Of a stretch of DNA of 64,000 nt, positions 5,531 to 63,669 are shown in pieces. The first letter of the stretch is position 1; each line of letters starts with the position of its first letter. Source of the DNA: Branchiostoma floridae (Eukaryota > Chordata > Leptocardii > Amphioxiformes > Branchiostomatidae); the NCBI RefSeq assembly GCF_000003815.2, contig NC_049990.1, positions 15,965,548 through 16,029,547 of the forward strand. The letters run 5' to 3'. The translations under genes were made by a program, and so were the position numbers. The notes below the pieces were generated by a model. It ran no database searches. It had not been told where the DNA came from and was given only the letters and a program-made list of their open reading frames with translations.

Positions 5531-5740
<210 letters not shown>

Positions 5741-6547: not shown

Positions 6548-6798
6548 CTGGTGCAGAAAAGATGCAGACGAGTCGCCCCAACTCGACCCAGCCTCAGCCC
6601 GGGCGCGGCATGCCTGACATCCTGGACACCATGCAGGGCACCAACGTGGACCTGGGCTTCCCGGAGACGGAGAGTTCCAACGTAGACAGCGAGGAACTGG
6701 TGCCCAGTCTACAGGAAGCGCTGAGCTCAGACATACTCAACGATGTTGAGAACATGTTGTCACCATCCAAGATCGACAACTTCCTCACCTGGTTGTAG
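6548..6798 (+). CDS. YAP1: YAP1/Yorkie homologue, last coding exon
   Basis: The acceptor CACAG ends at 6547 and the phase fits the preceding exon (A|CT, Thr). The exon encodes GAEKMQTSRPNSTQ, then IPGTNVDLG-like MQGTNVDLGF, then ELVPSLQEALSSDILNDVEN, and stops after KIDNFLTWL. The SLQEALSSDILND block and the terminal FLTWL are hallmarks of YAP; FLTWL is the class of PDZ ligand that binds ZO-2/NHERF-type PDZ proteins and affects nuclear entry. Vertebrate YAP has KLDKESFLTWL, so three residues are missing before the motif here. TAZ also ends in LTWL, but YAP is favoured by the longer transactivation domain. In an invertebrate chordate this would be the single YAP/TAZ ancestor. Confidence 0.96.
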
Positions 6799-21515: not shown

Positions 21516-21581
21516 TGCAAGGTGGAGCTGCCCTCGTGCAGTGACCAGGCCAGGGCAATATCATGGCAGAGGCATTTGCAG
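21516..21581 (+). CDS. Proposed start exon of the TIR-pseudokinase-SH3 gene
   Basis: TTATCATTTACAG (acceptor ending 21515) precedes 47 bases of 5' UTR and then ATG at 21563. The coding part reads MAEAFA plus one base before a GTAAAC donor at 21582. The phase-1 end joins in frame to the TIR exon at 35135 (G|GC, Gly), giving MAEAFAGSPEGPSRYDLLF. TIR genes often begin with such a short leader. The weak point is the 13.5-kb intron between the two exons, so this joining is inference from phase and placement. Confidence 0.5.
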
Positions 21582-30229: not shown

Positions 30230-30260
<31 letters not shown>

Positions 30261-33200: not shown

Positions 33201-36200
33201 GTAAAGGTTTAAATCACATTTGGTGAAGCAGAGCTCAAAATCCTTTTTTCTGCATACCTTATTTTTTTCCGCCTCAAAATCCACTCGGTACATCCTTATT
33301 TTAGACGGTGCGTTTATTTTTTTTTTTCAAATTGGGGCTTTCTTTACTAACCCGGGACCCCAAAAATATTGAAAGTTTGGTATTTTCTGCCCATATTTCT
33401 GCGGTATTTTTGCTTAAAATTCACTATTTTTCGGACGAGGCAGCGCGGATTTCCCTGCCGCTAGCGGTATGACCCAAACATCCTAAATTAAACTAGGGAT
33501 GCGTACCGGTACGCTGGATCGGTGCTGGATTTGCAAAAACTTTTCGGTTCAATTCCAAAAATAAGTGATTCGGTACAGCACTCACATATATCCTTTTTGT
33601 TTTAGACCATACTTAACCTTCCAAAAATCTTGAAATTTGCGCTGAACAAAGACGAAAACATTGCCAAACATCAAGGTCCATAGGCCGAGCTCAAACACAT
33701 GCTACACAGTCACTCAGATCCGTAAATTCTCGATCAAAACACAGAAATTAACCGCCAACCAAACAAACTAAAAAGTTACCAATACTTTTCCACAATTTTT
33801 CACCCGTAGTCAACTTGTTTTAATGTTCCAGCAACGAAAAAATCCTTCCAAAATAAAGCACAGCGTTCAATCGGCTTGAAAACATCCGCCATGTTGGATT
33901 TATCAACTCACGCCGAATCTCGCGGTAATGCGCAAGAGAATGAATATTTTCTGCAGTACCGTTATTTTTTAATAGGGGGCAGTGTCTATGACCTCCTTGG
34001 TTTCTGCAACATTGAAAATAGCACAAGAGGTGAATAAAGTAAGGTATTATACTAAGTTGGAATGTTTCTTCAAAATGTTATTTTGTAACAATGATTATAA
34101 AATCAAGTTCTTTTTTTTATTTCTTCAATTTTTATTTTCATTCATTTTTTACTTTTATTATAATTTTTGTTGATGTTGTGACACTCAGATAAAGAAAATA
34201 TGTGCAATAACATAGGAATTATTCTGTTCATTATTTATACAATTAACTGATATGGTACTCAGGCATAAATGAATAAAAAGAGCCTACCTGCTTATGACTG
34301 AAGTAGCATGGACACAGTTTACATGTCAATTTGGTATTTTTCCGCGGGGTACTTTTATTCCAGGGGGTACTTTTATTAAATTTTGAAGATTTGTCCCGGG
34401 GGTACTAGTACTTCTATTTGAGAGGTGAGAGTATGGATTGTACTAAAATTGTTGAGGAACCATTGCAATTTTTTCTTTACTTAATAGATGGTAACAGTCA
34501 ATGCAGCTAATAATCCACATATACCTACATCATAAGACATTTATGTATAAACCCAGTGCATCTACCAGTGCAGGTAGGCACCAGAAACACCTGCACAGCT
34601 CCAATTTTACCTGCACTAACCTGCATATGCAGGTGGTATTTCGAGCCCTGTGAAGGTATATTGTCATGGAACTCTAGTTTGATTTTAACATTTTTCACAG
34701 TAGCCAATTACATCGGACTGCCTGGTCAGCTAATCTATACACAATGAGTTACAACTATGGCAATCAAGTTACAAGCTGCACTTCATGATCACTGGGTGAA
34801 ACATATACTATTTTGTGGGTCTGTAGAAAATGTTATCAGCTGGCTTCTTGCAAATTTGCAAGGGTATGATAAACTCTGAGGATTCTTACTGGCGCTAAAA
34901 TGTCTATTTTGATGAAGATCCCTGAGGATCCCATTCAAGCACAATCCAGGTTGCTAGAGTTTACAAAATGCACATTAATTTTGTACTTGATATGTTTAGA
35001 TCTGTAACGTTACAGCATTGTGCTCCCAATTGTCAATGATACGTGTTACTGTCAAATTGTGAATCACAATGATTTTGTGTACATCACTAAATAAATTTTA
35101 AGATGTACACAATCTATTTTCTTTTTTTGGACAGGCTCACCTGAGGGGCCCAGCAGGTATGACCTTCTATTTTTGTCAAGTGATGAAGACAAGCTATGGA
35201 CTGAGGAAAACCTTGTCAAGCCTCTAGAGAAAAGGGGATACACAACATGTCTGCCACATCGGGACTTTACACCTGGTATGCCAAAACTGAATCTTCTACA
35301 CGATGCTCTTAAGAACAGTATGCGAACTGTCCTTGTCATCACACCTGAGTTTCTTGAGGATTGGCAGTTCAAACAGGCACTGGATCCAACTTTTATAGAT
35401 GAGGGAAAGCTCATTCCCTTCATCTACAAAAGATGTAACACATTACCAGAGGCTCTTACAAAGGTGATGCCCCTGGAGTACAATGAGCAGGTGGACCCTT
35501 GCCTTCTTCTTGACAGGATTGGCAATTCAATTGAACACAGAAAGAAATGTAAGTAAATTCAATGTTACAGTTGTAACTCAAATAACCTGATTTAAAGATT
35601 CTGGAATATAATATGTTGAGTGTGATCATGATCATGGTTCAGCAGTCATAGACTTCACAGAACTACTTCGGAGGTTTTCAACAAGAGTTTCATAACAAAA
35701 TACACAAGAGATTTAGATGAATCCAATTAACAGGGAGTGTGAAGATTACAATGATAACAAACTTAGGTCACGAATGGCATGAGAGCATGTAAATAGATAC
35801 TATTACTAGTATAAACAGTTTACATGCCTTTCATACTTGTAACAACTCTTACTCTTTGTTTGTGTCACTCTTTAAATCAAGACACCTGTTGTCAATAATG
35901 TTACCACACCCAAATTTAAATTATTAATTGAAGTACATGTCTTAGGGACTTGTTTTAGATTCAAAGTAGGGCATATCAGGTAGGCATGTCAGAACATTGT
36001 ATAATTGAGCACACAACCAGTACCAATGTCAGTATCATTTAATTTACTAGTACTAGAGTAGTAGTAGATTCAAGAACTAATTCAAATCAAAGGAAGATAA
36101 CTTGGCACTGTGTAAAAGGCAGAATCTGATCTAGATTGTCCATCAATATAGTTCCCTTCTATGTACATGTAGGTCTTGATGCAGATGATTTTCTTTTTTT

Positions 36201-39200
36201 TTGCTATTGAGCATTTGGAAGGCTGCTGCTCTCACCAAAGTAAAGTTTAGTAAATGTTATTCCCCAACCCATGTGGCTTTCTTGGTATAAGGTAAATGTA
36301 GAAAATGTGAAGACCCAGGATCGAAGACCCATTGATTGACAAATCTAATGTGATGCCTTTTCTACAGCTGTTGATACTCCTCGACGTGATCGACCAAGGC
36401 CTGTAAGTGAAGTACTGTGGGATGTGGTTGTATATGAACGTCTTCCTGGATCTGTAGGAACAGAGAGCAACCGCAGATACAGTGAAAGTGGAGGTAAACA
36501 TTTCTTATATTGGAACTGTAATGTATTGATAGGGCAGTATGCTCTATAGCCAGAAAAAGCTTATTTTGTAAAACAGACACAGAACACGCTCATTTTAAAT
36601 GTAAAACAACATAATTTTGAAATCAACTTAGTCGTAACCTATAAAATCTGAAAAACAAATTGAGATATATTGTATTTTAGTCAGTCTCAAAAAGCTTTAT
36701 CTACACCTGTTGAGTGACACTGTGTGGATTTACCTTTGTGTCAAATCAAGGGTCCTTGGTCAAATTTACTAATTTCATTAAAAAATGAACCTGCTATCAA
36801 TTGATACGAATGATATTCCTTTTTCATTTGCCTCATTGTATGCTATGTTTTTTATCAATCATAAGATACAAATGTATGATTAACAGTGTTATCTGTATTA
36901 AATTTACAGATTGGTCTGTAGATGCCTTCTTCAACGACGTCGATGGCTACCTACAGAGGCTTGACAGGAAGGAGGGCAGACCCTTCATCAACATAGAGAC
37001 AGACATCTGTGAAAACATCATTCCAGAGCATCTTGTAAAGCCAGCTCTGTCCCACTTGTCCAACTATGACAAGAGCCGCATGGTGTTGTCCAAGCTTAGC
37101 TGCTATCGAAGAAGCACAAAGATAGTAATGGTAGCACTAATTGCTCTCAATGAATTGATCCTCAATGACCCTATTGAAGGCATAACAGCAAATCGCATCA
37201 ATGACTTTGAAAAGATCCTGCGAGCAAAAGTCCAGCCAGCATCCCTTCATGCTCAAGCAACCAAAGAACAGCGACTGAGGTTGACAACATACAGTAACCT
37301 TCTTCGTTGCATCATCTTGCATCTTGCCCGGGGAAACTTAAAGACAGTTTTCTCACAGGATGATCTCTCAAAACTGGAAACCATCAAGAGGGCCTTAGAA
37401 GAGGACTATGAAGATGACAATCCACCAAGGTTGGACTTTGCTCTGACATGCACAATCCAAGCCCTGACATGTGTGACAGAGCCACAAGAAAAATTCCGGA
37501 AAATCTGTCAAACAGTAGGTGATATCCTGAAAGAGGTTGATTGCATTACCAGGAGTCAGTCTGCATCCAAACCTGACTGCTCAAGCCTAGGCAGCAAGAT
37601 TGATAAAGCAGGGATATTTGACACTGGTGTTGCTGCTACTTATCTCCTGCCAAAGGTTGGTTAACATTGACAAATAGTGATGAGCATAATTTGTTACCCT
37701 CACCAAGAGCATAAATTGTTTTCGGTGCCATACGTGGTTGGTTGGTTGGATATCTGGTTGGTTGGTTTCCAGCAAAAACATTGAATTGTTCAGAAAATTA
37801 TAAAACAAGGAGTCAGATTAATGGCTCAAAATTGTCGAAAAAGTGTAGCATTCTGAGACACGGTCAAAATCTGAAATCTGACCCAAAACCTTTTCCATCC
37901 AAATTACACAATCCTAAGTACAAAATTCTATTCATTTGATTCAGGGCTCTTTGATAATTATTGTTTGTGGTCATAGGTATTATGAGAGTAGACATGTACA
38001 TGTATGTCCTTTAAACCCAAACTGATTCCCTTTTAGTATTTAGACTTAGTCTTATGTAAAACATACATACAGACTTAGTCTTATGTCACCAAAAACAATT
38101 AACCCTAAAGTTTCATCAAACTTAAAAGTTATTCCACAGTTTACCCTAAGCTTTTATATCACTAGGCTATGGCTGTCTAGCTATGGGACTGAGCATAGAT
38201 TATAATATTTCCTGTACCCAATTGAAATTACAATTATTCATACCAATTGCCACATTTAAAATTTCTCATTAACAATGCAAATGATGGCCATATTTATGTA
38301 ATCTTTATCTAATGGTGTTCACCCTTACTTGACCTAATCAAAATCATTACACTGATTAAAAAAAGGTACATAATTTTAGATATAAGTAGCAGTATGTTAA
38401 CTGATAATGATACTAGGAATATTATTAAAGATGTTACTTGCACATCTGCAATTCTAGATCACAAGCACCCATGCTCTATTGTGCCTGAGAACTTTGCTCG
38501 ACCACCACATCCAGAAGTGCACCAAGGGCACATTTTGGAAGAGGCAAACGAAGGCAAACAAGAAGCAAAAGGGAGCAGAGTGGATACTATACCACACAGC
38601 AGTTATGTTTGTACGTGTTCTGAAGAACAAGGATTGCCCCAAAGGTAGGTGTGATGGGTTAGTGATTTCTTTGATTAGCAGAGAATTTTACTAACTATTT
38701 ACAGTCTGGAGGTTTGCAAAATATGATCTGGTCTTAGGCTCAAATTGATGCAAATTTCATGAGCCACAAACTTTGCTCTTGCAGTCTGAGTCTTTTTTAA
38801 AATAGAAACTAAATTTGATATAATAATGTTGTACCTCAGACTCACCCCCACCACCATATTGTACATTTTATTCCTTACACACTGTAAATAGTTGCTGCAA
38901 TTTGTGAAATTGCTGGAAATATGATACCATACACATAGTCTGGCAGTTTTGCCAAACAAAGGATCGTATTTTTTGCAGACACAGGGCTATGGACCATTGG
39001 TTACGGCAAGGAGTTTAAGAAAGGAACTTTTTCAACCTCCTTGGTTACGGTCACTTTAGGGTTACACTACAGGGGGTACCAACATTACGGGGCATTTCAT
39101 TTGGTCACAAGACATGTTCATGTCAGTGCAGCAATACTTACATGTAACATACAATAATGTCTTATATTATTTTGATTAAAGTGAAGTTGTTTGGAAATGC

Positions 39201-48200: not shown

Positions 48201-51200
48201 TTAGATATGCTGCACCATGCAATGATTATAATGCAGAGAAAACCCAATTTTAACATATCCTGAATTTGCAGTTAGGAGTCATACTATCCAATTCAGAATT
48301 TTAAAGTTTTTTTAATCATTTTTTTATTGTAATTGATGCAATATCTTAATTTATGATCTAGTTATTGAGGATGGCAGAGGGAAATAGATATATCCAGGAC
48401 TTAATGGGCCTAGGCCATCTGTGCACTGCCCTCTTTTGGCCCTTACCACATGATATTGTGATGTTAAACTTTGCCCCGGGTATAGCAAAACAATTATGTC
48501 TGTAGTGTTTAAGAAAAAGATACTTCAAGATCTAAATACCATCATTTATCATAATTTTGATTAATTACCAATTATGCCCATCCTGCCCATCCTTGAGTAT
48601 AGAAAACTGATGAACATGTACAATACATGTTGGTCGCAAACCCTGATCATGATAAATGGCTTAGTTGTACCTTTAATGATATTTTAAACACTACATCCCA
48701 ATCATGCTAACAGTGCAGATTTTTCTGTCACACTTATTTAGATGCTGACATCAGCTGTTGCTGCTGAAGACCAGCCTCAGCCCCAGAAAGAGGTTACTGT
48801 TTAGATTGTATACAACTGCCTGTCAGTGAGATGTAATATTTCATCTTCCCCAATCATGTATAATTGTGATGGGATAATCAGGCGCCAAGCCACATCAAGA
48901 GTTCTATGCATGCAGTTTTATCTTTATTTTGCGACAGAAATAGATTTTCCAATAATTGTACTCCTAGGATGAGGAGAAACTTTAGAAATATAATACCAAG
49001 ATAAGAGTACCGATGTTCCAAAAACAGGCATGAAGTACCAATTTTTACTTTCTTTTTATATAGGAATGATTTAGATAGAAATTGGAAAAAGAATATGTTT
49101 TATAAATCAGAATTTTAGACTTTATCTATAGAGTATTATGTCCAGGGTGGTCCTCCCATTCATGTTGTGATCCAGAGTTGCATTGGTGATGAAATGTCTC
49201 GGATCATCAAATTATATTTTATCAAGTTCAAAATCAGATTTTCCCAATGTTTGTACTTAATAAGTCCTCACTATTATTTGTGTGCACTATTTAGAACCAG
49301 TTCATGGAGGTAACTAGGTACAATGAGAGAAAAACCCGGACTCTAAAAGACTTCAGGAGAGAAATGAAGAATCAGAACTCAACACTCAGAATCGCCGACC
49401 TCCGACAGTCAATCAAAGAAGGTTCCATGACTATGGTATGTTGAAAATATTTGAATCTCAGATAGCATTGTTTTTTTAATCTTTGTGAAAGGAGGACTAT
49501 CACCTCCCGAAGGGAGGGTTTGAAACTATCCGTGTTTGTGCTGTTCACAGCGACATGATTGGCAGTAGATCATTATGTATATGGTCAGGCGGTAGCTCCA
49601 TGATAATGTACGTTGTTTTGTTTACACCGTAATTTTCTTTATATAGGCATTGTCATATTTCAGAAATCACTTGTTTTTAATCGCAGAGGCCATCAATAAC
49701 GTTGGATTCCAATGTGCGACTCATTAATCTCTTAATGCTAGAATACCACACACATCATGTCAACATGATTTACAACAGCCAATAAGAAAACATCAGTACG
49801 GCTTCTTTTAATTACGTGGACGTGGAATAAATCGCAATGTGACCAGGAGATGTCCATGAGGTAGTACGCCATAGTACAAATGTAGATGTGTGTTTTTTGG
49901 GTGTCTATAAACATGAATGCAGAAACTTATTAAAAGCATCTTTTTTTTTAAAGTTTAAAAAAAAAGTATGACTGAATCGTGATAGGTAATATGGTATTAT
50001 CGTAAACTTAAGACAAATTAAACAGCATCTACGTTGTACTTAATGGTATTTTCAAGCAGAAGTTTGAGCACTCAGGGTTTAGGGTGAATTCGAATGCCTA
50101 CCAGCCATACATCTAAATGCTTGTCAATGATAAATTTAAGTTTGTTCTGAGACTCAGATTTATTTTATACTTACCTGTAGGTCACAGAGGGTACTAGGAT
50201 GGGAACATTAGAGGACTGGTTGATAAAGACAAAGGAGGAAGACCCGACTCACTATGCACTACACATTGCCAAAGCTCTGCAGGCAGTGCACAACAAAGGA
50301 TTTGTCCACTCAGACCTGCGCCTGGGTCATGTATTTCTTGATGCATCGCCGCATGGAACTCGTGACATTACGGTAGTAATAATCTGCTTATTGCTCTTAT
50401 TTAATATAATTTGTGTCAAATGGACTTTACCTACGAATCCTTTAATCAACAGAATGAGATTAGAACTTACAAAGTAGTCAAGTTTCAAAGCGTTTAGCTC
50501 AAGTTCAGAGACTGACAGCATATACTGTAAGTTGAACAACAACTTGCAGAATTCAGAACATCATAGTTTCCTACAGTCATTTGTTTTGTTAAATGGTATA
50601 ACTCATTTCTAATAAATTTTAGATTTAGATTATCTGCACACCAACCTACATTATACACACACTCATACTGTATTCAGTCTTTATGTTATTTCAAAAGCAG
50701 GGTTGAATTTTTCAAATTGGTCCGAGCAAGTTGGGGGAGTGTGGGGGAGGAAGGAAGGGGGGGAAGAGGGAGGGGAGGGGAGGGGAAAAGGGGGGTGCGG
50801 GGGGGGAAAACGAGGGGAGGGAAGGGGGGGGAGGGAGGGGAAGGGAAGAGGGGGAGGGAGGAGAGAAGAAGGGAGAGAAGGGGGGGGGCAGAGAAGGGAG
50901 AGAGAGAGAAGAGGGGAGGGGAAAGGGGGGGAGGGAGGAGAAGGAGAGGGGAGGAAAAAGGGGAGAAAGGAGAGAGGGAGGGGGGAAGAAAAAAGAAAGC
51001 CGAGAAAGAGGGGGGGAAAGGAGGGAGGAGGGAGAGGGGAAAAAAGAGGGAGGGGAAAAGAGGAAGGGGAGAGAGAAAAAAAAGGAAGGGGAAGGAAGGG
51101 GGGGGGGGGAGGGAGGGAGTGAGGAAGGGAGAGGAGGGGGGAGAAGGGGGGAGGGAAAGAGGGAGGGAGGAAAGGGAGAAGAAAGAAGGGGAGGGGGAGG

Positions 51201-54200
51201 GAAGGAGGAGGGGGGGGAAGGAAGGGGGGGGAAAGGGAGAGGAGGAGTAGGGAGAGGAGAAGGGAGAAGGGAGGGGAAGAGGAGAGGGAGAGAGAGGGGG
51301 AAAGGAGGGAGAGAGGAGGAGGGGAGGAGGGGAAGGGAGGGGGAAAGAGAGAGGGAAAAGGGGGGGGAAAGAGGGGAGGGGAGGGAAGAGAGGGGAAAGG
51401 GGAAAGGAAGAGAAGATGGGAGGGAGGGGGGAAAAAAAAAGAGGGGGGAAGGGGGGGAAGAGGAGAGAAGGGGGAGGAGGGAACGAAGGTTGGATAGGGG
51501 AAGGGGGTAAATNNNNNNNNNNNNNNNNNNNNNNNNNNNNNNNNNNNNNNNNNNNNNNNNNNNNNNNNNNNNNNNNNNNNNNNNNNNNNNNNNNNNNNNN
51601 NNNNNNNNNNNNCTTTTGAAATAACATAAAGACTGAATACAGTATGAGTGTGTGTCATGAAGCTTTGAATGTGATCTGGATGTAATGAGTGTTTCTTGAG
51701 CATTTTTGACTTACAAAATCATTAAACCTTTGAACTACACAGTGATCCAAACACTGCCAAAAAACGTTGTGTGTATAATTATTTAACATAACTTCCTTGT
51801 TTCAGATCAAGTTGGGACGGCTATCTCGAGTAAAAAAGCTGCAACGCGGTGTTTATGATATGAGTCTATCAGAGAGCATGTTTCAAGATATGGATGGTTG
51901 TCCAACAGATTCCATACGCTGGTACGTTTGACTCTAGATCTCACTCACTCACTCACTCACTCACTCACTCAGTGCTATAGCTTTAACTTGATGGTTGATA
52001 GGCAGATTTGTTACAATTTTGAAACAACTAACCAGGAGTTTTTATTTCAATAGTCAGCTATATGGATCATTACCAAATGTCACATCCATTGATTTGTTAA
52101 ACAATATTTTAATGCCGACTACTCCTTGCCGGCCATGTTGCTTGTAGTAGAGAGCCAGCCAGAAAACTCTTGTTCTGGACACCAGTGTGTTCTCAAAGAA
52201 ACTGTGTATGACTGTATTTGTGTTTCTGCATTGCATACTTAGCTGTTTTATGTATGGATTGGAATGATCTTGGTACTAGTATGTGCCACTCAAAGGTACG
52301 TAGCTAGGTCTTGTACATTATCGTGGTAACATGTGCTTAATGTGAATTGTCAATATAGATTCAGAATCTGTAGGAAATATTCTAACAATAAATGTAACAA
52401 TAAATGACATCTCTCCACATTCTAGGTCTCCTGCTGAAGTCATACAATCAGGAACCTACTCCTTTGCTAGTGATGTTTACAGCCTTGGAGTTGTGTTTTG
52501 GCAAATGTACATGGCAGGCCAGCTGTTGTCATCTCAAGGAGCACATGTTCGCTTGATACCTCATCAGCTTCTCAAGAATGAGGACGTAAATTGTTATTCT
52601 TACTACTGTAACATTTTTATTAGAAAGTACAAACTTTGACAGGATATATTCTAGAAAATCCAACTATTGGTTTTGCAACCCAGTATTTGTTGCAAAGCAT
52701 CATGGTCTTGCCTGATACTTTCTTGTAAACTATGCACTTTCTTGTATGCACTTTCTAAACTTATCAAAATTGAAAAATGGGTCCATGGTGTTGCCTTAGT
52801 CGAGTTGTGGACGTAAAAATGCGACAAAACGTAAACACAGGCTAAAGGTATGACCTGTGCTAGCCACAGAGTGACTGTTTTGTACTATATGTTAACTTTA
52901 TATTTCCTATTTCATAGGTGCTCCTGTTTCTTGAAGGCAGTCACTTCTTACCAAAGCCACCAAACTGTCCAGACTGGATGTACACCGTTATGAAGAAATG
53001 CTGGGCGTACCAGCTGTTGGAAAGGCCAGCTATCCAGGATGTGATAGAGGTGCTGAACCACAGGTATACACCGATCTTTTACTGACATGTCTTTCTATAG
53101 TTTACCCAAACGGTAGCATTTCTAGTGAAACAGTGTGATTTAAGAAGCTGGTGATAAATCGTTATCACGATATTGAATTTAGTAACTTCAACTTCCCTCA
53201 TAGTTCCATTGGTTTCATTATACACCAAAATTATAAGACACTAATTTAAGATCATGGTCATTGTCATTTAAAGAGATCAGATGAAAATCGAGCTGCAGGC
53301 TGATTTGAGCTTCTCTACTCAGAAAGGTGTCTCCTTACCTGAAGCCAACTCAAAGAGCTATCATGTACAAAAAGCTAGGGGGTCCATTATCTAACTTGAC
53401 CTTCATTTTCCCGACCCCTATATACCCACATACCAAATATAATCAGGATCTATCTGAGAGTTATGCTGTTAACACACAGACACACAAACATGCCCAAAAC
53501 ATAACCTTCTGCCATTCTGGCGAAGGTAACTACTAGTACTAGGGCTGGGTACCGGTACAGAAAATTCAGGTCCAGGTCCAGTTCAGGTCCAAAGGATTAG
53601 TTCCAGGTCCGGACCTGAACCTGGACCTGATGCAGTATGACTCATACCAATGGTCCATTTTACTACAAAGAAATCTGTTTGGTGGAGTATTAGACTTACA
53701 CTTTTAAAACCATACAACGCTAACTGCACCTGTACAATTGGCTGTAAAACTTGGTAGAAATTACTATAAATTCTACTCTACTTCACTCTTGTTATTTTCT
53801 TCCATCTGCAAGCGCTAAAATGTGTGAATGCCTGATAAAATAATCTATTAATTTTCGAATCGGTCCAACATCCGGTCCACCTAATTTTTTCAGGTCCGGT
53901 TTTTCTGGACCGGTCCAATAAGAAAAACCGGTTTTGTACCGGTACGCAGTACCGATACCCAGCCCTAACTAGTACGTATACCCGTATGCATGGTACCCAC
54001 TGCAGGCTAATGTTTACGGGGAGAAAACAGCTCCATGTTTACGTCCATTTTAAAGTTTTAAGGTTCGTGGTCGATTATTTATTATTATTTCCCATAACAG
54101 AATATAGATTACTTACTAATGTTATAGATATACAATGTAACTCACACAATCAGATATACGTACAACATTACTATAGCTTCAGAATCTATTTTCTGACCAC

Positions 54201-57200
54201 GGACAGAATCGTCGACAAGGATGGCGTATCATTGCAGGTATAAATAGACAGGGCATCTTATAGGCAGACATTCATGCGTAAAACATGCTTGCGTATAAAT
54301 TGTGAAAACAGTTCATTTCAGCATGATAATCTCTGAGTTTTGCAGAAGTTAGGCATTGACATTGTCTAGATACAATTAGCTTGTATTTTAATGAATATTT
54401 GTATTGATAGTTTTGCAAGCTGTGTATTGTATTGAAAATTTGTCACGGTTTCTTTTCTTTTTTGTTTCAGTGACCTTGGTAATGCACTATTCAGTTCATG
54501 GAAACAGTCATGTGATCCACCTGACCTGTCGGAAATCTATGACCGTCCTTACGAGGGTGCCAGTGCTGATGTAAGTGTATATCTTATCAAATTGAATGTA
54601 GAAAGGTAATAAAGTATCATAACTCAGGTGGAAAAAGTACATTGTTTTCTGCCACCATGGTTAACACTATTCAAAGAAATTTGGGCATTTAAAGTTGCTG
54701 TTACATTTGGTAATTACTAAGTATGAATATGGAAAAAAGAGACTCTTTTTCACAAAACCATAAAAATATGATTGCTTTATTCACACCGATGTTTCGGTGA
54801 CCGTTTGTCACCTTCTTCAGGGTAATTCTGACTGGTTCACATTACTGCAGGACAGGTGTCGCTGCTCACAGTTCAGATGCGGTCACAAAACGTAAAGTAT
54901 TTAAACATATGTACAGACGGATTTATGCAAAATATTTTACTGTACAATGTAAATATTTTTTTGTGACCGTATCTGAACTGTGAGCAGCAACACCTGTCCT
55001 GCAGTACAATGTGAACCAGTACATGCATGCATTGCTTCTTTAATGTAAGAGGAACACATGTTAGGGTGTTATTAATTCTCATTATCATAATTTATGCAAA
55101 AGATCAGCAAGACCACGTTTTGCACTAACCCTCTTCAGACCGGGGATTGCGGTTTTGAGGCCCTCAGCAACTTTAATATTGCATGATGCTTGAATTGCTT
55201 GTGCTAAAGCTTCCATACATGGTAAATAGTCGCAAAATGATATTAGTATCCAAAATTTCAAGTTAATAAAATATGTTTATCATTCATTGTGTTGCCATAG
55301 CAACGGAAGTATGTTTCTTAAAAAAAATTCCGATTTTGATTGAAACATAATTTTCTTGGTAAACTACACAATCATGTTTTCGAACATATTCTATGAAATT
55401 AAATATAACTTACGATATATGCTAGTTTGATGACGCCAGTGGTCAAAATCCAAGATGGCCGCCTTTATTACCTTAATGATGTCATAATGTCATATAAAAA
55501 AATGATGATGACACAAAAACTGTTATTATAAAATTTGTTATACATCTACACGGGGTATATTATCCTCTCCAAATTTGATGTTCATACGACTTTTTTAATA
55601 TGCATTACACAATTCACTACGTATACCCTTATAATGTGTTACTCTTTGCATTTATTCACTTCTTTAATCTATATCTTTACTCATAATTATAATTCTTAGA
55701 TTCCTTTAACCTAAGTACTTGATTTGGTCTTACTTAAATTTTAAGAAAATTCAAGGTGGTATATTTTAATTACCTTAAATTTAGATAGTACATGAAATTA
55801 AGAATCATACGTGACAAGCATTTAGCAAGATTATAAGCTTTTTTTGTGATTATCAAAACATGTATTTCCAATCGCTACAACTCCTTCACTATTTCCAGCC
55901 TAATGTTCTTGTTTTCAGTCCTGGTTGTCTGACAGATCAGGGATAGGACGAACTGCAAGTGCACGCAGCAATGTTGATCAACCTTCCCATGGTACAGCCA
56001 CTGAAATGTCTAGGAGTATGACAGACCTTCAAGACCAGAATCCTCATCAACGTGCACCTCCACCGTTTCCGCGAGACAACAGTCTGAACCTTCCAGAGCC
56101 TTTACCTCCCAGGGATTATGAAGGCCTGCTGTACCCATATGGTGAAGAAATTTACCATAAGCTGATGTAAAGAATTATCAATACAGTATGATGCCTTAAG
56201 TTTAAAAATGACTGTTAGAACACGTTTATATTACAGAAGAAAAGTGTCTGCATCAAGTATAATCCAAATTTGCAATCATGACATAATTGTATCTTGACAT
56301 GTGTGAATCATCTAAAGACAGATACATGAAATCCCAAACAGTTACATTGAACCCCCGACAGGTACATGGAACTCCAGTTTATGGCCTGAGGAGGAGGATT
56401 CGGTTCATTCATCTGTTACCAGTGGTTCAGAATTATTTCACCTCGTTTTTGTACGGTGAAAACACTAATATTGATTATTTCTAATATAATTGTATTTTAG
56501 AGCAATCTGAAGCCAGGCTGTCCGAAGACGAATATGAAAACCCGAATCAGGATCCATATGAAGACCCGGGCCCAGTCATTCATCAGATAGATCAAGGTAA
56601 GCTCCACTTCATCGTCAGTAGTGAACTTCTAAACGGTTCTAGACTCCTCCCAGTACGTTTCCCCTGGGCTGATCATACTGTACGTTGAAGACAAAATGAA
56701 TTAAAGCAATTTTGTATCCAATTTGGCTTTCATTAAGGAAACGATCCATGATCCACTCGCTGCATTTCAATTCAGGAACACCAAGAAGTTTTGGATAGCC
56801 CCGACGGAGACCACATACATGTTGAAAAAATCACCAATCCCAGGCCTAGATTTCCACCCTCACATCTTATCCCATCTATCCGTTTGCCTAACTATTTGAA
56901 AGTTGGGGCACCACGGAAGATCTGGTAGACAGGTTTCTCCCCCCTTCTCAGTTATCTGTATTTCTCAGTGATTTTGACACTTACATCTAGTGTCATGCAT
57001 GTCTATTCGTTGATATTATCCTCCCGTCTTTTCCATTGCCTACCTCATTTCCTCTCTGGAAGGTTCCTTACATTTTTGGCTAGTCCAGATGACCGTGACA
57101 CATTTGAGTTTAGTTTTCCTTATTGAGGTTAGAAATTCACCACGTGCATAAACAAAAAAATGTCAAAGTGTCATTCACATTAATTTTGCAATGGCATAAT

Positions 57201-60200
57201 TGTATCTTGTGTGAACATCTAAAGACAGACATTGGCAGACTCCAGTTTATGGCCTGAGGAGGAGGTTTCGGTTCATACCAGTGGTTCAGAATTATTTCAC
57301 CTCGTTTTTGTACGGTGACAACACTTGATATTTCTAATAATTGTATTTTAGAGCAATCTGAAGCCAGGCTGTCGGGAGACGAATATGAAAACCCGGATGA
57401 TGAGGAGTTCTATGAAGACCCGGGCCCAGTCATCCATCAGATAAATCAAGGTAATCTCCACTTCATCGTCAGTTGTAGTGAACTTCTAAACGATTTCTAA
57501 AAACTAAGGACATAACCAACCCTCCCAGTACATTTCACCCTGGGGGGATTATCCTGTTGAAGATGATTCTCCCCAGTCGTTTACACCCCCCCCCCCACCC
57601 ACCATGCCTTTAATCTGACTTGATTGTCACTACTACGCGGGTTGGGGTACCTGATAACCTTCTAAACCAGTACTGTCTGTTAACGGTTATAATTATTATA
57701 TCCTGTTACTGTCTTCTTTAATTTGTTGTAATCCAGACGAGACCAGTTAGGCACAAACAAATAACAATGATTATTAAGATATACAAAATGTTTAACCTCT
57801 AATGCTGTGTTGATTCGGCCTTTTAGTACTAGTATTTAGTCAAATTATACCTATTTTAACATTCTTTTTTGCTCTCTCATTTAAAACACTCTTTTAACAT
57901 CCCAGTTGTCCCATTCTAGCAATTAAATATGATATGAATCACTGTTAGCCTTTCAGAACGTTTCAGAAACATTTCTTGTACCCATTTGTGCAATTTCTAA
58001 GGCCACAATGACTTAATTTTATACATGACATCCTCTGGAGACCCTAAAACTAATTATTATAATGCACACGGGCGAAAGAAGAAAAAATCGATCCAAAAAT
58101 GCTGCTAAACATCCAGACCATTCTTTCCCAGGCTTGGTTTGTCTTATGTTCACCTCCAGTAAGACTGTAACACTCAATCATTGCCAATTTTTAATCATGT
58201 TTGTATTGCCATTCTTGTTTAAAGAAAGGAACAAGGATGCTGTGGCTCCATGTCTTGACCATTTGCCCTCCAATCCTAGAGAGCACTCGGTCCTCCGATA
58301 AACATGAAATTCTTTTTTTTCTTAAACAGGAGAAAATTATTGCGTGCGCGGTTGTCATCCATAAAATTAAGTCAGTGTGGCCTAACTAGAAATCAACATT
58401 CATAACTGATACTATTTTTTCTGTCACAGCTTACTCTGATAAGGTGGCAGTTTTGAGCTCGCACCATCCACAATATAATCTCAAGCTCTCTGTTGGAGAG
58501 GTTTTGACTGACCTTCAACATCTGGGAAATGGCTGGTGGAAAGGCACCTCTGCAGAAGGAAGAGGCCAATTTATGTCTGCAAATGTGGAATTCTTTGTTG
58601 ATGGCAGAGATGCATATTCTGTGAACAAAGAAATCCTGGAACAAGATGTACAATGTGGGTACATGTGTATACTGCTGTAACAATAGATTATCCCATAGTG
58701 CACTGGGTGTCCCCAAAACGAGGAAACATGAGTTTAGGCTTTAAGCAGTAGCAAAAGTCATGAAACGTATTAATGCCTTTTCTGGGGCTTGGATGATGGC
58801 TGTTGCAGGCAGGAGGTCAGAAAAAGTTTTAAAAATGCAAAATGTGCTGCTGCAGTACCAAGGTCATCAATCAAACAGGGGGCCCAAAAATCGACCTTCA
58901 CCATCACCAAACACACACCTACCCACCTACCAAAAACATCGCAATCCTTCCAGTGACTCATGAGATATACCCCACATACCATCTGGACCCAAAACAGTAT
59001 GGTCAAAGCAATACTTCCTTCATGGAAGTGTAATTAGTGTTTTTTTTAGTGATATTGATATTATTATTTGATTGGACATTTCACTACTTACCAAATATCC
59101 CAAAACATGTAATAAAAACTGTAAAAATCAACAATATTCTTTTTAATGTCATCTACAGTGAATCCAAATCTCAAAGCGAGGGTTATTCTAGACTATACAC
59201 CAGATGATGAGCTGACAATTGTGGCTGGTGAAATGGTCACTGTTGTAGATGAAACAACTTCAGATGAGGATGGCTGGATTAGAGTGATGTCAAGTCGTGG
59301 AGAGGGATTAGTACCAAAATTATGCCTTGCAAGTACCATTAAGGATACAACTTCGTCTCTGACTGCATGCAACATTGACTCAGACACAGGTAAGCCCTGG
59401 GCTAATTATAGATCTCCATCTTCCTGACCATAACATGCCTAAGATGTATCAATGTCAACAACAGCTGTTGCAATATGTGAAAGAACGTTTATACCGCTTG
59501 ATATCTTTGGTGCTTTAACTTCTTAGAGGGCAAACTTTCATATTGTTTTTACAGATGATATGTACGACTTTGCGGATGTTCCAGGAGAAGAAGGCGTTTA
59601 TGAAGAGTGGTCCCCACCTCCATCACAAGCACCAAGTGACCAGCGCTTCAGTATCAACATCAGTATGAAAAAAACAGAGAAAAACGACAACTGTACGATT
59701 AAAACTTCAAGTGCTACCTCTATAAGTAGTCCAATTATAGAAGTACTTATAATAATCAGTAACTGCAACGGTGTGGCCTTTCGTAATGCTTAACTCTAAG
59801 TAAGTGCAAACTTGATTTACCTGATTTGCCCAATCATTTATCAATATTTCTAGCAGTTAAAGAAATTCTCTGTCTTGCAAGCTGTTGCATATTATTTCAA
59901 TTTATCAATGCATTAAAAAACAGCCACATATGTAGATGCTTTGTAGCTCTTGTCACTTTTAGTATTTAGTACTGTACTAAATTTTCAAATCAATTATTTT
60001 CTTTTATTTACAAGCAATTGCTTTATTTCTTAGTGTTTGATGTCAGATTAAAGTGTGTTTGTTTCAGATCGGCTGATGGTGTCGATGGCAGATCCAGGTA
60101 CACTAGTTCTGTAAATTTTGTAGTCATATAATCTGAATGATAGGGAATTGGGGGAGGAGGGAGATTTCTAGAAATTACAAAATAATCCAAAAATCTTCAC

Positions 60201-63200: not shown

Positions 63201-63669
63201 TAGGTTTCATTTTATGACTACAATCAGGGCAAGAAATGTACAAGTTTTGTAATAAGCTTCATCTGAGAATGAATGGATGAATATCTTTTATACAGAAGTG
63301 TATTATATACCCTGGTTTAAGTACATGTACGTATCTCAATAAAAATAGTTGATAGATACAAAATATATCAATTAATGCAAATGTCTTTTATTTGCCCTAT
63401 TACAGGCTCCATCATCTATGGTCCCAGAGTAGGGAATGGAGAGGAAGATGGTCGACTTGTCCTAGTCTGCATGTCTCCTTTCTATGGGAAGAAATGTGTA
63501 AGACATGAATGGTACAAAGATGGTGATTTGGTGTCTGAAGGTGTAGACCTTTGTATGTTGTACGTCACTGAGCCCGGGGAATACCGTTGCCACATCATCA
63601 GCTGTAGTGATGACCGAGAGATGGCAATGTCTGAACCTGTGAAAGTTGTGCAAATTTATAGAGTTCCAG
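21563..63669 (+). CDS. Giant multidomain signalling gene: TIR - helical - pseudokinase - pseudokinase - SH3 - SH3 - Ig (incomplete at 3')
   Basis: I reconstruct 31 exons: 21516-21581, 35135-35548, 36368-36493, 36910-37655, 38458-38644, 39316-39565, 40517-40716, 41246-41614, 42278-42456, 42795-42957, 45272-45348, 45691-45783, 48066-48128, 48742-48792, 49295-49435, 50181-50372, 51806-51921, 52426-52585, 52918-53063, 54471-54570, 55919-56141, 56501-56596, 57352-57450, 58430-58654, 59159-59389, 59555-59662, 60068-60097, 60260-60268, 61765-61935, 62875-62940, 63406-63669. All have AG/GT borders and every phase agrees; 5314 coding nt give about 1771 residues with no internal stop. The last exon ends in phase 1, so the gene continues beyond the window. 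The domain order matches no family I know. No signal peptide or membrane helix is seen, suggesting a cytosolic scaffold in innate-immune-type signalling. It may be two genes if the first exon or the long introns are misjoined. Confidence 0.75.
21745..24110 (-). mobile_element. Truncated, stop-containing LINE (reverse transcriptase), minus strand
   Basis: On the minus strand, from about 24100 downward, the RT blocks are GKFPHQWSQSVLVPIFKSGN, then LYACFVDFKKAFDSV, then a stop at RQG*NLS, then LSWADDLVLLS, which is the catalytic Y/F-x-D-D block with WADD here. KLTINKNETKIMIF follows. Downstream come a separate-frame block with AVHVQDMLSRHGF and a C-terminal IEDEYHFIMTCPTYNEER. The 3' end is a (GATA)n run at about 21745-21760, typical of LINE tails. 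The stop and frame changes make it inactive. It lies antisense in the proposed first intron of the large gene. Confidence 0.88.
24396..24750. repeat. Perfect 35-bp inverted repeats around an assembly gap
   Basis: The arm at 24396-24430 (TAGACTCCGTTGCAGTATTC onward) is exactly inverted at 24716-24750. Between them are a G/T-rich tract, about 100 N (24498-24597) and a C-rich tract. The sequence is either a TIR element with a low-complexity core or a hairpin the assembler could not cross. Open frames spanning the N run are meaningless. Confidence 0.85.
24498..24597. other. Assembly gap (100 N)
   Basis: Run of N; true length unknown. Confidence 0.95.
25186..25345 (+). repeat. tRNA-derived SINE
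   Basis: GTGTGGCGCAGCGGCTAGAG (box A region) and GGTCCTGAGTTCGATAGTC (box B) have tRNA spacing. The tRNA part is followed by a tRNA-unrelated body (GACGGTGGAGTGACGCCCAC). The extra sequence and body mark it as a SINE rather than a tRNA gene. Confidence 0.75.
25400..27390. other. Intronic, repeat-rich, no gene seen
   Basis: An open frame at 25662-26000 is preceded by a possible acceptor but its composition and lack of motif do not support coding. 26690-26960 is a copy of the dispersed family (CAGTATGGCCAAAACAATAC; ACCTTCCAGCGGTTCTTGAG). Confidence 0.45.
28552..28690 (+). mobile_element. LINE reverse-transcriptase relic
   Basis: One frame reads TYPYLVYCNIVWGNAYKTF, matching YPYLAYCNIVWASTY of the LINE at 3220-4280. 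The frame is lost soon after. Confidence 0.65.
29211..29422. mobile_element. Palindromic MITE with CCGCGAA motifs
   Basis: The left end TACTGTAAATGCAGAAATG then TTCGCGG is mirrored on the right by CCGCGAACTTAAATGCATTT then ACAAGTA. Inside are several direct and inverted ACCGCGAA(C/G)T copies. TA at the ends fits a Tc1/mariner-like target. Confidence 0.75.
30231..30301. repeat. (TG)n microsatellite
   Basis: Imperfect TG/TGAG run of about 70 bases. Confidence 0.95.
31617..32266. mobile_element. TIR-bounded element with CACTGGCGG ends
   Basis: It starts CACTGGCGGATCTAG and ends CACCGCCAGTG. The interior holds a G homopolymer stretch and two diverged copies of a roughly 180-base unit (about 31733-31915 and 31985-32110). 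Ends of this type are common in hAT-like elements, but I see no 8-bp target duplication. Confidence 0.6.
32270..35134. other. Intron of the large gene, no exon recognised
   Basis: The region is AT-rich with repeated ATTTGCATAA blocks (about 32880-33180). A sequence near 33500 (GGATGCGTACCGGTAC) resembles the end of the hAT-type element at 53540. No coding frame is supported. Confidence 0.45.
35135..35548 (+). CDS. TIR-domain exon of the large gene
   Basis: The acceptor TTTGGACAG ends at 35134 and the donor GTAAGT follows 35548; both ends are phase 1. The exon encodes residues about 7-144 and holds a nearly complete TIR domain. Visible parts are box 1 YDLLFLSS, helix A KLWTEENLVKPLE, the BB-loop RDFTPGM (compare RDxxPG), LLHDALKNSMRTVLVITPEF, and KLIPFIYKR. 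TIR domains assemble MyD88-type signalling complexes, and some hydrolyse NAD+. In NADase TIRs a Glu usually lies four residues after the helix-C Trp. Here that position is Gln (WQFKQ), favouring a signalling rather than enzymatic role; this is inference without a structure-based alignment. Confidence 0.9.
36368..36493 (+). CDS. Linker exon after TIR
   Basis: The 126-nt exon (phase 1 to 1, residues about 145-186) encodes a basic, proline-containing start (DTPRRDRPRPVSEVL), then WDVVVYERLPGS, then RRYSESG. No domain is recognised. RRYSES resembles a basophilic kinase site. The splice borders and phases fit both neighbours. Confidence 0.75.
36910..39565 (+). CDS. Helical module of unknown family (3 exons)
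   Basis: Exons 36910-37655, 38458-38644 and 39316-39565 encode residues about 187-580. The sequence is rich in amphipathic helices: DWSVDAFFNDVDGYLQRLDR, HLSNYDKSRMVLSKLSCYRR, STKIVMVALIALNELIL, YSNLLRCIILHLARGNLK, then ALLCLRTLLDHHIQKC, AEWILYHTAVMFVRVLKN and PDIANALSRRLL. It has the look of an alpha-helical repeat or helical bundle, but no family motif is recognised. The middle exon is read in the frame with phase 0 at its start; the other open frame over 38394-38648 would break the splice phase. The position between TIR and kinase suggests a regulatory or oligomerisation spacer. Confidence 0.75.
40517..42957 (+). CDS. First pseudokinase domain, tyrosine-kinase-like (4 exons)
   Basis: Exons 40517-40716, 41246-41614, 42278-42456 and 42795-42957 (residues about 581-884) encode a kinase fold. 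The N-lobe lacks a GxGxxG loop (TVIYHGTMSGN) but keeps the beta-3 Lys (VVVKVP) and the helix-C Glu (RNEILMLKHLRHENI). The hinge is YITEFMHYGNL. The catalytic HRD is HRN (IVHRNIRARKVLL), the following metal-binding Asn is Lys, and DFG is GFE (LTGFELA). The C-lobe is tyrosine-kinase-like: LRWLAVESL for RWMAPES, SVKSDIWMYAVVLYEIFTMG, and RPSYSTLADKL. Losing both catalytic Asp residues makes it very probably inactive, acting as an allosteric or binding module. Confidence 0.9.
44273..44480 (+). mobile_element. Truncated copy of the CACAACCCGCCGTAC MITE
   Basis: GGGCACAACCCGCCGTACGT, GCCACTTCCGCCACATATTT and GTGTCTGCATGCTCCAAAAT match the element at 16853-17202 in order. The right end is missing. 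Confidence 0.8.
44970..45060 (+). mobile_element. PLE-type terminal fragment with hammerhead-like core
   Basis: CTGAGGA, a spacer with GACAGACGGTCG, and GAAACGTTGC, followed by AATAAAGCAATGGTTGTG and AGTCTCTT, match the minus strand of 54730-54830. CTGAGGA fits the hammerhead CUGANGA box. Stem II is only partly complementary here. Confidence 0.55.
45272..48792 (+). CDS. Inter-kinase linker with acidic tyrosine motifs (4 small exons)
   Basis: Exons 45272-45348, 45691-45783, 48066-48128 and 48742-48792 (residues about 885-979) encode a low-complexity linker. It contains APPPIVQ, VFIPDPVPGVFESDPEDDG then IYIDT, STEESVYNVYEDVD and AEDQPQPQKE. Several Tyr lie in acidic surroundings (GIYID, SVYNVYEDV), which fits tyrosine phosphorylation and SH2 binding; this is inference from motif type. 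Internal boundaries are phase 0, so single exons could be skipped without frameshift. The third intron contains the 1.57-kb element at 46291-47858. Confidence 0.75.
46291..47858. mobile_element. 1.57-kb TIR element with CAGTCAAACCTAT ends and TA target
   Basis: The left end CAGTCAAACCTATTGATAGC and right end GGCCGCTAATATAGG then TTTGACTG are inverted copies, flanked on both sides by TA (46289-46290 and 47859-47860). Such CAGTCAAACC termini with TA duplication fit pogo/Tc1-mariner transposons. GGTGGCCGC repeats occur near the right end. No transposase is apparent; the open frame at 47497-47769 has no transposase motif. Confidence 0.85.
49295..54570 (+). CDS. Second, strongly degenerate pseudokinase domain (6 exons)
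   Basis: Exons 49295-49435, 50181-50372, 51806-51921, 52426-52585, 52918-53063 and 54471-54570 (residues about 980-1264) encode another kinase-like unit. The N-lobe is reduced: no glycine loop and no VAIK lysine are visible. The hinge-like VTEGTRMGTLEDWL parallels ITEFMHYGNL of the first unit. The catalytic loop is VHSDLRLGHVFL, so HRD is HSD and the Asn is His. The DFG position reads GRL (IKLGRLSRV). The C-lobe is recognisable: IRWSPAEVI, SFASDVYSLGVVFWQMYMAG, and MKKCWAYQLLERP. The last exon ends with EIYDRPYEGAS, a possible phosphotyrosine motif. Probably inactive. Confidence 0.85.
50655..51655. repeat. Purine-strand (GA)-rich tract and gap between perfect 43-bp inverted repeats
   Basis: The arm at 50655-50697 is exactly inverted at 51613-51655. 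Between them, about 50715-51510 is almost wholly G and A on the + strand, followed by 100 N. The very long open frames over this tract (Arg/Gly/Glu/Lys on +, Pro/Ser/Leu/Phe on -) arise from composition alone. The tract lies in the intron between 50372 and 51806. Confidence 0.9.
51513..51612. other. Assembly gap (100 N)
   Basis: Run of N; true length unknown. Confidence 0.95.
51938..51971. repeat. (CACT)n microsatellite
   Basis: About eight CACT units 17 bases after a splice donor of the large gene. Confidence 0.9.
53540..53967. mobile_element. hAT-type MITE with 8-bp target duplication ACTAGTAC
   Basis: The 428-bp element starts TAGGGCTGGGTACCGGTAC and ends with the inverse, one mismatch. 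Direct repeats ACTAGTAC flank it (53532-53539 and 53968-53975). The interior repeats CAGGTCC(A/G)G many times in both orientations. No coding capacity. Confidence 0.9.
54730..55021 (-). mobile_element. PLE-type terminal fragment with inverted arms
   Basis: On the minus strand CTGAAGA, the hairpin GGTGAC/GTCACC and GAAACATCGG form a hammerhead-like core at about 54786-54820. Adjacent arms 54831-54890 and 54958-55021 are inverted copies (two substitutions and one 2-base indel). Similar ends at 15363-15847 and 44970-45060 make a family. Confidence 0.6.
55919..56141 (+). CDS. Ser/Pro-rich exon with SH3-ligand-like stretch
   Basis: Exon residues about 1265-1338: a disordered Ser/Arg/Gln-rich part (SRSMTDLQDQNPHQ) then APPPFPRDNSLNLPEPLPPR and DYEGLLYPYG. 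Proline motifs such as PLPPRDY could bind SH3 domains, perhaps the two in the same protein. The frame stays open to a TAA at 56168-56170, so reading through the donor GTGAAG at 56142 would give a truncated isoform ending GEEIYHKLM. Confidence 0.75.
56501..56596 (+). CDS. Duplicated phosphotyrosine-motif exon, copy 1
   Basis: The 96-nt phase 1-1 exon encodes EQSEARLSEDEYENPNQDPY followed by EDPGPVIHQIDQ. DEYENP and DPYEDP are acidic Tyr motifs of the type bound by SH2 domains after phosphorylation. A second copy follows at 57352. Confidence 0.85.
57352..57450 (+). CDS. Duplicated phosphotyrosine-motif exon, copy 2
   Basis: The 99-nt phase 1-1 exon encodes EQSEARLSGDEYENPDDEEF followed by YEDPGPVIHQINQ. 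It differs from copy 1 mainly in the middle (NQDP against DDEEF). Because both are phase-symmetric, either or both could be included in mRNA without changing the frame. Confidence 0.85.
58020..58395. repeat. Dispersed repeat shared with 41876-42180
   Basis: Shared blocks in order: TGACATC(C/T)(T)CTGGAGACC, AAATGCTGCTAAA, then GTTGTCATCCATAA and AAGTCAGTG. Parts also occur at 29763-29800 and 30890-30935 (TTTATGGATGACATC and inverse). Confidence 0.6.
58430..58654 (+). CDS. SH3 domain 1 exon
   Basis: The phase 1-1 exon (residues about 1404-1478) carries a full SH3 domain: KVAVLSSHHPQYNLKLSVGE, then VLTDLQHLGNGWWKGTSAEG, then RGQFMSANVEFF. The GE.L..L, WWKG and G.F...NVE positions match the SH3 consensus. 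The usual ALYDY is changed to AVLSS, so the ligand surface may differ. The donor at 58655 (GTGGGT) is fixed by phase. Confidence 0.85.
59159..59389 (+). CDS. SH3 domain 2 exon
   Basis: The phase 1-1 exon (residues about 1479-1555) encodes LKARVILDYTPDDELTIVAG then EMVTVVDE, DGWIRVMSSRGEGLVPKLCL. This is a canonical SH3 order (..LDY.P..DELT...GE, DGW, G.VP..C/Y). LDYTP keeps the ALYDY Tyr. It is followed by a Ser/Thr-rich tail. Confidence 0.9.
59555..60268 (+). CDS. Small linker exons including a 9-nt micro-exon
   Basis: Exons 59555-59662, 60068-60097 and 60260-60268 are all phase 1-1. The first encodes DDMYDFADVPGEEGVYEEWS then PPPSQAP, with acidic Tyr motifs (DMYDF, GVYEEW). The second encodes RLMVSMADP and the 9-nt exon DPS. 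The frame after 59662 stays open to a TAA near 59790, but the donor A|GTATGA restores phase with the next exon. The two tiny exons are inferred from AG/GT borders and phase; skipping either keeps the frame. Confidence 0.55.
61281..61565. repeat. Nested fold-back element
   Basis: AACTGTCACACAACACAAGA (61281 on) is inverted at about 61535-61565, and inside it GATTGGTGATTCAATTCCTC is inverted as GAATCACCACTCC with surrounding bases near 61480-61500. It is a long imperfect palindrome with no coding capacity. Confidence 0.75.
61765..62940 (+). CDS. Unrecognised module before the Ig-like domain (2 exons)
   Basis: Exons 61765-61935 and 62875-62940 (phase 1-1, residues about 1605-1683) encode GRLSVEYTKNGQLKKSRDQC, then EADVAAHNMTEEQKDHYHPL, AYGWMIKSMKKTIGAR, and DITFLDWASTAANPMFPAAV. 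The composition is ordered and conserved-looking, but I recognise no family. Confidence 0.75.
63406..63669 (+). CDS. Ig-like domain exon; gene continues past the window
   Basis: The phase 1-1 exon (residues about 1684-1771) encodes GRLVLVCMSPFYGKKCVRHE then WYKDGDLVSEG, and YVTEPGEYRCHIISC. Cys - Trp (in EWYKDG) - Tyr-x-Cys (EYRC) is the Ig-fold signature of an I/C2-type domain. One Ig per phase 1-1 exon is the classic shuffled arrangement. In a protein without a signal peptide this would be an intracellular Ig, as in titin-like proteins. The exon ends in phase 1 at a GTAAAA donor, so more exons follow beyond 64000. Confidence 0.85.

Follow-up and report, generated by a model that had tools for sequence, protein, structure and literature searches.

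The plus strand of the window (the whole stretch of DNA analysed, 64,000 nucleotides) carries a chain of exons that, on balance, probably belongs to one multi-exon animal gene encoding a large, catalytically dead TIR scaffold with no predicted membrane segment. The exons are phase-consistent and encode a TIR domain, two tyrosine-kinase-like domains that have lost catalytic residues, a tail in which tyrosines in an acidic setting are enriched, and SH3 domains. A preliminary description of this DNA had proposed a cytosolic scaffold connecting TIR signalling to tyrosine phosphorylation and SH3 networks. The combination of TIR, pseudokinase and SH3 domains remains the best reading of the chain, and the lack of a predicted membrane segment agrees with it; a single transcript and a cytosolic location would both have to hold for the proposal to stand in full.

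Candidate internal exons were scored with generic splice matrices and with a codon-usage table. Since this table was derived from 978 codons of obvious exons in the same chain, the scores are partly circular. We searched for chains among exons from position 21,000 onward, excluding a polypurine tract, at three different penalties. All three gave phase-consistent chains free of stops, with 59, 44 and 32 exons, the last having 5327 nt. The stop-free chain of 31 exons and 5314 nt given in the preliminary description was thus reproduced in kind, with an exact exon list that varies with the settings. A conservative chain has 25 exons and 4954 nt, or 1651 codons without a stop. The weak exons left out of it include those at 46374, 46994, 47766, 48077, 48742, 53274 and 53480, and further ones at 54821, 56654, 58132, 60068, 60227, 62875 and 63710; part of these may be genuine. 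On the Kyte-Doolittle scale no 19-residue window of the 25-exon chain exceeded 1.6, so that a membrane segment is not predicted in the part seen. Rfam and tRNA scans returned no matches.

Between 34.9 and 64 kb, 18 separate exon candidates totalling 4126 nt exceeded the threshold on the plus strand, compared to 4 candidates (425 nt) on the minus strand at the same threshold. The remainder of the window had 7 candidates on the plus strand and 5 on the minus strand. Twenty first-order random resamples yielded 4 candidates in total (none in 17 of them; 1, 2 and 1 in the others). Among the 18 exons, which were picked regardless of phase, 16 of the 17 neighbouring junctions were phase-compatible (P = 2.7e-07 if each fits one time in three), and the sole misfit was gone once the weaker exon for the N-lobe of kinase 1 (40517-40716) was added. 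The excess of exons and the compatibility of their phases argue for a coherent coding chain. A single gene boundary would be phase-compatible by chance one time in three, so a coherent chain cannot by itself rule out one such boundary.

Several candidates were rejected. Exons found by the chain search between 21.6 and 35 kb were dropped; none of them scored above 4.7 bits for coding, and a minus-strand retrotransposon piece lies in the region. Exon 44323-44391 was dropped on account of its peptide, which resembles, by eye, a repeat near 16.7-17.0 kb. The high coding score of the polypurine tract at 50.7-51.5 kb was judged to be false, and the tract was left out of the candidate counts as well as the chain search. 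This tract, 800 bases long (50700-51510), is within an intron of kinase 2, adjoins an assembly gap and inflates coding scores.

The first part of the chain comprises the TIR domain and a region without known relatives:

21563..21581, plus strand: possible first coding exon, speculative (MAEAFA; ATG, donor CAG/GTAAAC, with a phase 1 donor that fits the TIR exon)
35135..35548, plus strand: TIR exon (TIR_2 6.2e-09 for the open frame alone; RDFTPG loop motif retained)
36368..36493, plus strand: short basic linker exon (coding score, phase)
36910..37655, plus strand: large helical exon, without known family (coding score 68.3, top-ranking once the polypurine artefact is set aside)
38458..38644, plus strand: helical region continued (weak acceptor)
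39316..39565, plus strand: end of the helical region (donor GGT/GTAAGT; in-frame stop 2 nt beyond the donor)

The TIR domain was well supported. In the joined protein it matched Pfam TIR_2 at 5.8e-08 and TIR at 1.6e-06, above the curated cut-offs of both families (33.7-36.8 bits versus 28 for TIR_2; 28.5-30.7 versus 21.3 for TIR). The nearest PDB sequences to the TIR exon are the TIR domains of TLR15/TLR2, Toll-receptor-related 2 and TLR1. The domain reads WQFKQ at a site, beyond the printed alignment, that we take to be WCHYE in TLR1, with Gln where the TIR domains of TLRs presumably have Glu. If this correspondence is right, SARM1-type NADase activity of the domain is unlikely. An upstream start exon is required, as the TIR exon has its first in-frame ATG at 35278, within the domain. 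The start proposed earlier, at 21563, was not borne out: the choice of that exon is a guess, given that it has 19 nt and lies 13.5 kb upstream of the TIR exon with an assembly gap in between.

Nor was a helical domain confirmed. The helical exon had no Pfam family and no relative in IMG/VR, where 8 pattern matches fell in viral contigs, and the helical part had no credible PDB relative, its sole match being a thioesterase at E = 1.1. A single-sequence model of the exon was all-helical and of low confidence (mean pLDDT 36.9), and was unusable for a fold search.

The kinase-like part of the chain consists of the following exons:

40517..40716, plus strand: N-lobe of kinase 1 (beta3 Lys retained, VVVK; joined Pfam match from residue 28, no kinase match alone)
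41246..41614, plus strand: catalytic region of kinase 1 (HRN for HRD, GFE for DFG; joined Pfam match 9.4e-50, alignment)
42278..42456, plus strand: C-lobe of kinase 1 (joined Pfam match, alignment)
42795..42957, plus strand: end of the kinase 1 C-lobe (joined Pfam match, alignment)
45272..45348, plus strand: proline-containing linker exon (coding score, phase)
45691..45783, plus strand: acidic linker exon, GIYIDT (chain search)
49295..49435, plus strand: kinase 2 from alphaC to hinge (joined Pfam match from residue 18, no match alone)
50181..50372, plus strand: catalytic loop of kinase 2 (HSDLRLGH for HRDLAARN; alone Pkinase 6.5e-05, below cut-off)
51806..51921, plus strand: RLS at the DFG position of kinase 2 (from alignment with kinase 1; the alignment to PDB sequences is gapped there)
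52426..52585, plus strand: C-lobe of kinase 2 (joined Pfam match, PDB alignment)
52918..53063, plus strand: end of the kinase 2 C-lobe (joined Pfam match, PDB alignment)

As had been proposed, there are two tyrosine-kinase-like domains. The joined proteins matched PK_Tyr_Ser-Thr, kinase 1 at 9.4e-50 (169.7 bits) and kinase 2 at 2.1e-28 (99.8 bits), versus a cut-off of 23.1 bits. The exons at 40517 and 49295 read as kinase within the joined protein and had no kinase family match singly. The search found no exon for the start of the N-lobe in kinase 2; the Pfam match starts at profile position 46, with beta1-beta3 unrecognised, and the alignments of JAK2 from the PDB to kinase 2 begin at query residue 14. 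Kinase 1 keeps the beta3 Lys; its HRD and DFG motifs read HRN and GFE, and the Asn of the catalytic loop is replaced by Lys. Kinase 2 keeps the HRD Asp (as HSD) and has His for the catalytic-loop Asn and RLS at the DFG position. The full set of HRD Asp, loop Asn and DFG Asp is missing in each, and both domains are predicted from these residues to be dead, in agreement with the earlier claim. They are only 23% identical over 204 columns, and one is therefore not a recent duplicate of the other.

Downstream of kinase 2 is a tail with several tyrosine-containing exons:

54471..54570, plus strand: tail exon with YDRPYEG (coding score, motif scan)
55919..56141, plus strand: Ser/Pro-rich tail exon (PPPFPR, of the form PxPxPR; DYEG; alternative acceptor at 55936)
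56501..56596, plus strand: phosphotyrosine-type exon, copy 1 (YENP / YEDPGPV)
57352..57450, plus strand: phosphotyrosine-type exon, tandem copy 2 (duplicate of 56501..56596)

We compared the setting of the tyrosines between kinase 2 and SH3a with that in shuffled tails. With both exon copies included, 8 of the 9 tyrosines have D, E or N as the next residue (shuffled mean 2.4), a count that was reached in 1 of 5000 shuffles in one run and in none in another. With one exon copy, the figure is 6 of 7, reached in 3 of 5000 shuffles. YxxP occurs five times with both copies (shuffled mean 1.1; 11 of 5000 shuffles) and three times with one (shuffled mean 0.9; 200 of 5000). The acidic setting of the tyrosines is firm, and the excess of YxxP comes mostly from the exon duplication. 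The phosphotyrosine-type linkers of the preliminary description hold as putative sites; the enrichment of tyrosines in an acidic context persists with the duplicate counted once. The tandem duplication covers approximately 855 bp, with 88-98% identity in matched blocks, and its exon copies carry YENP and YEDPGPV. A motif scan of the chain found one YxxM, within the kinase 2 fold, three ITIM-like motifs, in the TIR, linker and helical parts, and no ITAM. As to possible partners, YxN suits Grb2, YxxP suits Crk and Nck, and PxPxPR suits SH3 domains of the CD2AP/CIN85 type.

The last exons in the window encode SH3 domains and an Ig-like segment:

58430..58654, plus strand: SH3a (SH3_1 6.9e-04, 19.6 versus 22.9 bits, below the curated cut-off alone)
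59159..59389, plus strand: SH3b (SH3_1 4.2e-06, 26.7 versus 22.9 bits, above the cut-off alone)
59555..59692, plus strand: acidic tyrosine exon (MYDFADVP, VYEEW)
63406..63669, plus strand: Ig-like exon (Cys-Trp-ExGxYxC pattern; motif level only)

Two SH3 domains had been claimed, and SH3_1 matched the two stretches jointly at 2.2e-10 (40.4 bits); singly, only SH3b passes the cut-off. SH3a had weak PDB matches (E 0.0003-0.009) to SH3 and cysteine-rich protein, SH3KBP1, CD2AP and GAS7. Its ALYDY motif and terminal residues are degenerate, and most of the ligand-site residues are lost, as judged by eye. The claim of an Ig-like domain stood as far as the motif: the pattern Cys-Trp-[DE]xGxYxC occurs in this exon and nowhere else in the six frames of the window. 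It did not extend to a family or fold. Pfam gave no Ig family at E values up to 10, and its single weak match was to a dynein AAA lid (E 0.039, short of the cut-off); PDB matches were weak (titin, E 0.063; IgM, 1.7); and a beta-rich model with a mean pLDDT of 62.7 gave no Foldseek matches at E ≤ 0.001. The exon finishes in a donor site, so the protein extends past the window. Three units resembling TATGCAAAT...TTTGCATAAT lie at 60576-60890, at a spacing of 130-131 bases.

That these exons form one gene is suggested by the splice sites, the phases and the lack of AATAAA between the TIR domain and kinase 1, and from these features we regard a single gene as somewhat favoured. At the junction between the TIR-helical part and kinase 1, the donor GGT/GTAAGT and the acceptor TTGTTTGAAATGCAG/GA have matching phases. 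The plus strand has no AATAAA from 35,090 to 45,019, where about 4.7 would be expected from 30 per 64 kb, and none from 45,783 to 49,295. AATAAA occurs at 45,019, in several places after 49 kb, and at 62,714, 63,167 and 63,338, before the Ig-like exon.

An arrangement of two adjacent genes, one for a TIR and helical adaptor (about 35.1-39.6 kb) and the other for a protein with two pseudokinases, SH3 domains and the Ig-like segment starting near 40.5 kb, is unlikely but has several points in its favour. Exon 39316-39565 would meet an in-frame stop 2 nt beyond its donor, and exon 35135-35548 one at 6 nt, so the coding content is compatible with a gene ending at either exon. An in-frame ATG at 40485 precedes the first kinase 1 exon, a TIR adaptor could stand complete on its own, and there are ten ATTAAA variants on the plus strand within 35,090-45,019. 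Against two genes, a good donor and a usable acceptor of matching phase join 39565 to 40517, the exons are just 951 bp apart, and AATAAA is absent where several copies would be expected.

It is also conceivable, and in our estimation improbable, that kinase 1 belongs with the TIR domain and that the part from kinase 2 through the tail to the SH3 domains, or the Ig-like exon alone, comes from another gene. A 3.5-kb interval (45783-49295) contains weak linker exons only and a 3.7-kb interval precedes the Ig-like exon; the AATAAA at 45019 stands before the linker exons. The three AATAAA just before the Ig-like exon strengthen a split at these later parts and weaken the single-gene reading, and the joint to this exon is the least secure of the chain. 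The phases, however, are compatible over both intervals, there is no AATAAA within 45783-49295, and any 5' exons for the N-lobe of kinase 2 would have to lie there as well. A decaying pseudogene or chance chain, to which the absence of catalytic residues from the two kinase domains and the degenerate SH3a (by eye) might point, is highly improbable given 1651 stop-free codons with usable splice sites throughout, catalytic losses that are substitutions inside recognisable folds, and the 4 exon candidates in all from 20 random resamples.

Under the single-gene reading, the protein could act without an enzyme of its own. The N-terminal TIR domain, of the TLR type, would dock onto receptors or adaptors bearing TIR domains, and the two dead tyrosine-kinase folds would serve as platforms for binding or dimerisation. 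A separate kinase might phosphorylate tail tyrosines in the YENP, YEDP and YDRP settings, which could then recruit SH2 proteins of the Grb2, Crk or Nck kind, and the SH3 domains may have proline motifs as ligands, perhaps including the PPPFPR of the protein itself. Some observations do not favour this scheme. Kinase 2, in which beta1-beta3 are unrecognised, retains the HRD Asp, the YxxP enrichment with one exon copy is weak, and most of the ligand residues of SH3a are lost (by eye). As a tentative proposal, which we place just short of an even chance, the gene would represent a new family of animal adaptors whose catalytically dead body couples docking by a TLR-type TIR domain directly to SH2/SH3 signalling; the helical domain would be new as well, and a recent duplication of an exon would have added phosphotyrosine sites. 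If one transcript has all of the modules, it would be a natural shortcut from TIR innate immunity to tyrosine-phosphorylation adaptors, and would offer a testable example of a pseudokinase pair kept as scaffolding.

The preliminary description knew of no family with this combination. For the exact domain order this stood among the literature matches listed; a link between kinase and TIR domains as such has been described, in the sections of the sources available to us (PMC6040629, PMC5094078). None of the TIR-combination matches listed, from a search with most subscription journals outside its scope, had a TIR domain with two or tandem pseudokinases and SH3, and the available part of PMC8195603 contains nothing on a TIR-pseudokinase-SH3 combination. 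According to the portions of the paper available, choanoflagellates have 'Kinase TIRs' and also TIR with SH2 (PMC6040629). The 'Kinase TIRs' likewise combine a kinase with a TIR domain and lack a transmembrane segment; they differ in having Pkinase followed by TIR, and were proposed to bypass kinase recruitment, and these portions do not mention SH3, a tail or a pseudokinase pair (PMC6040629). A predicted sea anemone gene, 'Novel Gene 3', likewise has kinase (Pkinase_Tyr or Pkinase), SH3 and TIR in one protein, but with Roc/COR and death domains and a C-terminal death-TIR end, as far as the excerpt describes it (PMC5094078). Here the TIR domain is N-terminal and is accompanied by a pair of dead kinases and a pair of SH3 domains, and no Pfam match to Roc/COR or a death domain was found in the part of the chain inside the window (the C-terminus lies outside). 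In amphioxus, the accessible text reports 28 TIR combinations, 20 of them amphioxus-specific, which may include TIR with tyrosine kinase, and the gene fits the pattern published there of lineage-specific shuffling of TIR domains in invertebrates (PMC2575513).

BCAP (PIK3AP1) offers an analogous logic. From the part of the source consulted, it is an adaptor with an N-terminal TIR domain that joins the TLR signalosome, is tied to phosphotyrosine-dependent partners, binding p85 and PLCgamma, and differs in having its own DBB and ANK regions (PMC5241739). Of the features of BCAP and BANK1, we found no DBB or ankyrin Pfam match after the TIR domain and no YxxM array (one motif, in kinase 2); by the features tested, the predicted product is not a BCAP. 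To our knowledge, the PEAK pseudokinases have no TIR or SH3 domain. They are alike in being dead kinases that serve as scaffolds, recruiting CrkII and Grb2 in the account available (PMC10279719). Tandem kinase-like domains are shared with the JAK family, and JAK and TYK2 chains are among the PDB matches of kinase 2. In JAKs, FERM and SH2 domains stand ahead of the tandem. The chain differs in that no FERM or SH2 Pfam match was found in it and neither of its domains keeps the full catalytic set.

Other features were seen elsewhere in the window. Two plus-strand exons at 5568-5717 and 6548-6699 encode peptides without a Pfam or PDB match, which we take to resemble the C-terminal part of YAP1. 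Between these and the TIR gene, a plus-strand open frame of 339 aa (13170-14189) scored high as coding sequence and matched no Pfam family above cut-off. The presumed first intron of 13.5 kb contains retrotransposon-like pieces on the minus strand, at 23233-23562 (RVT_1, 1.8e-10) and, with no Pfam match, at 21967-22979. Each of two gaps of 100 N, at 24498-24597 and 51513-51612, is flanked by a sequence and its inverted copy (38 nt, 97%; 43 nt, 100%), a pattern suggestive of an assembly artefact, either a gap or a palindrome.
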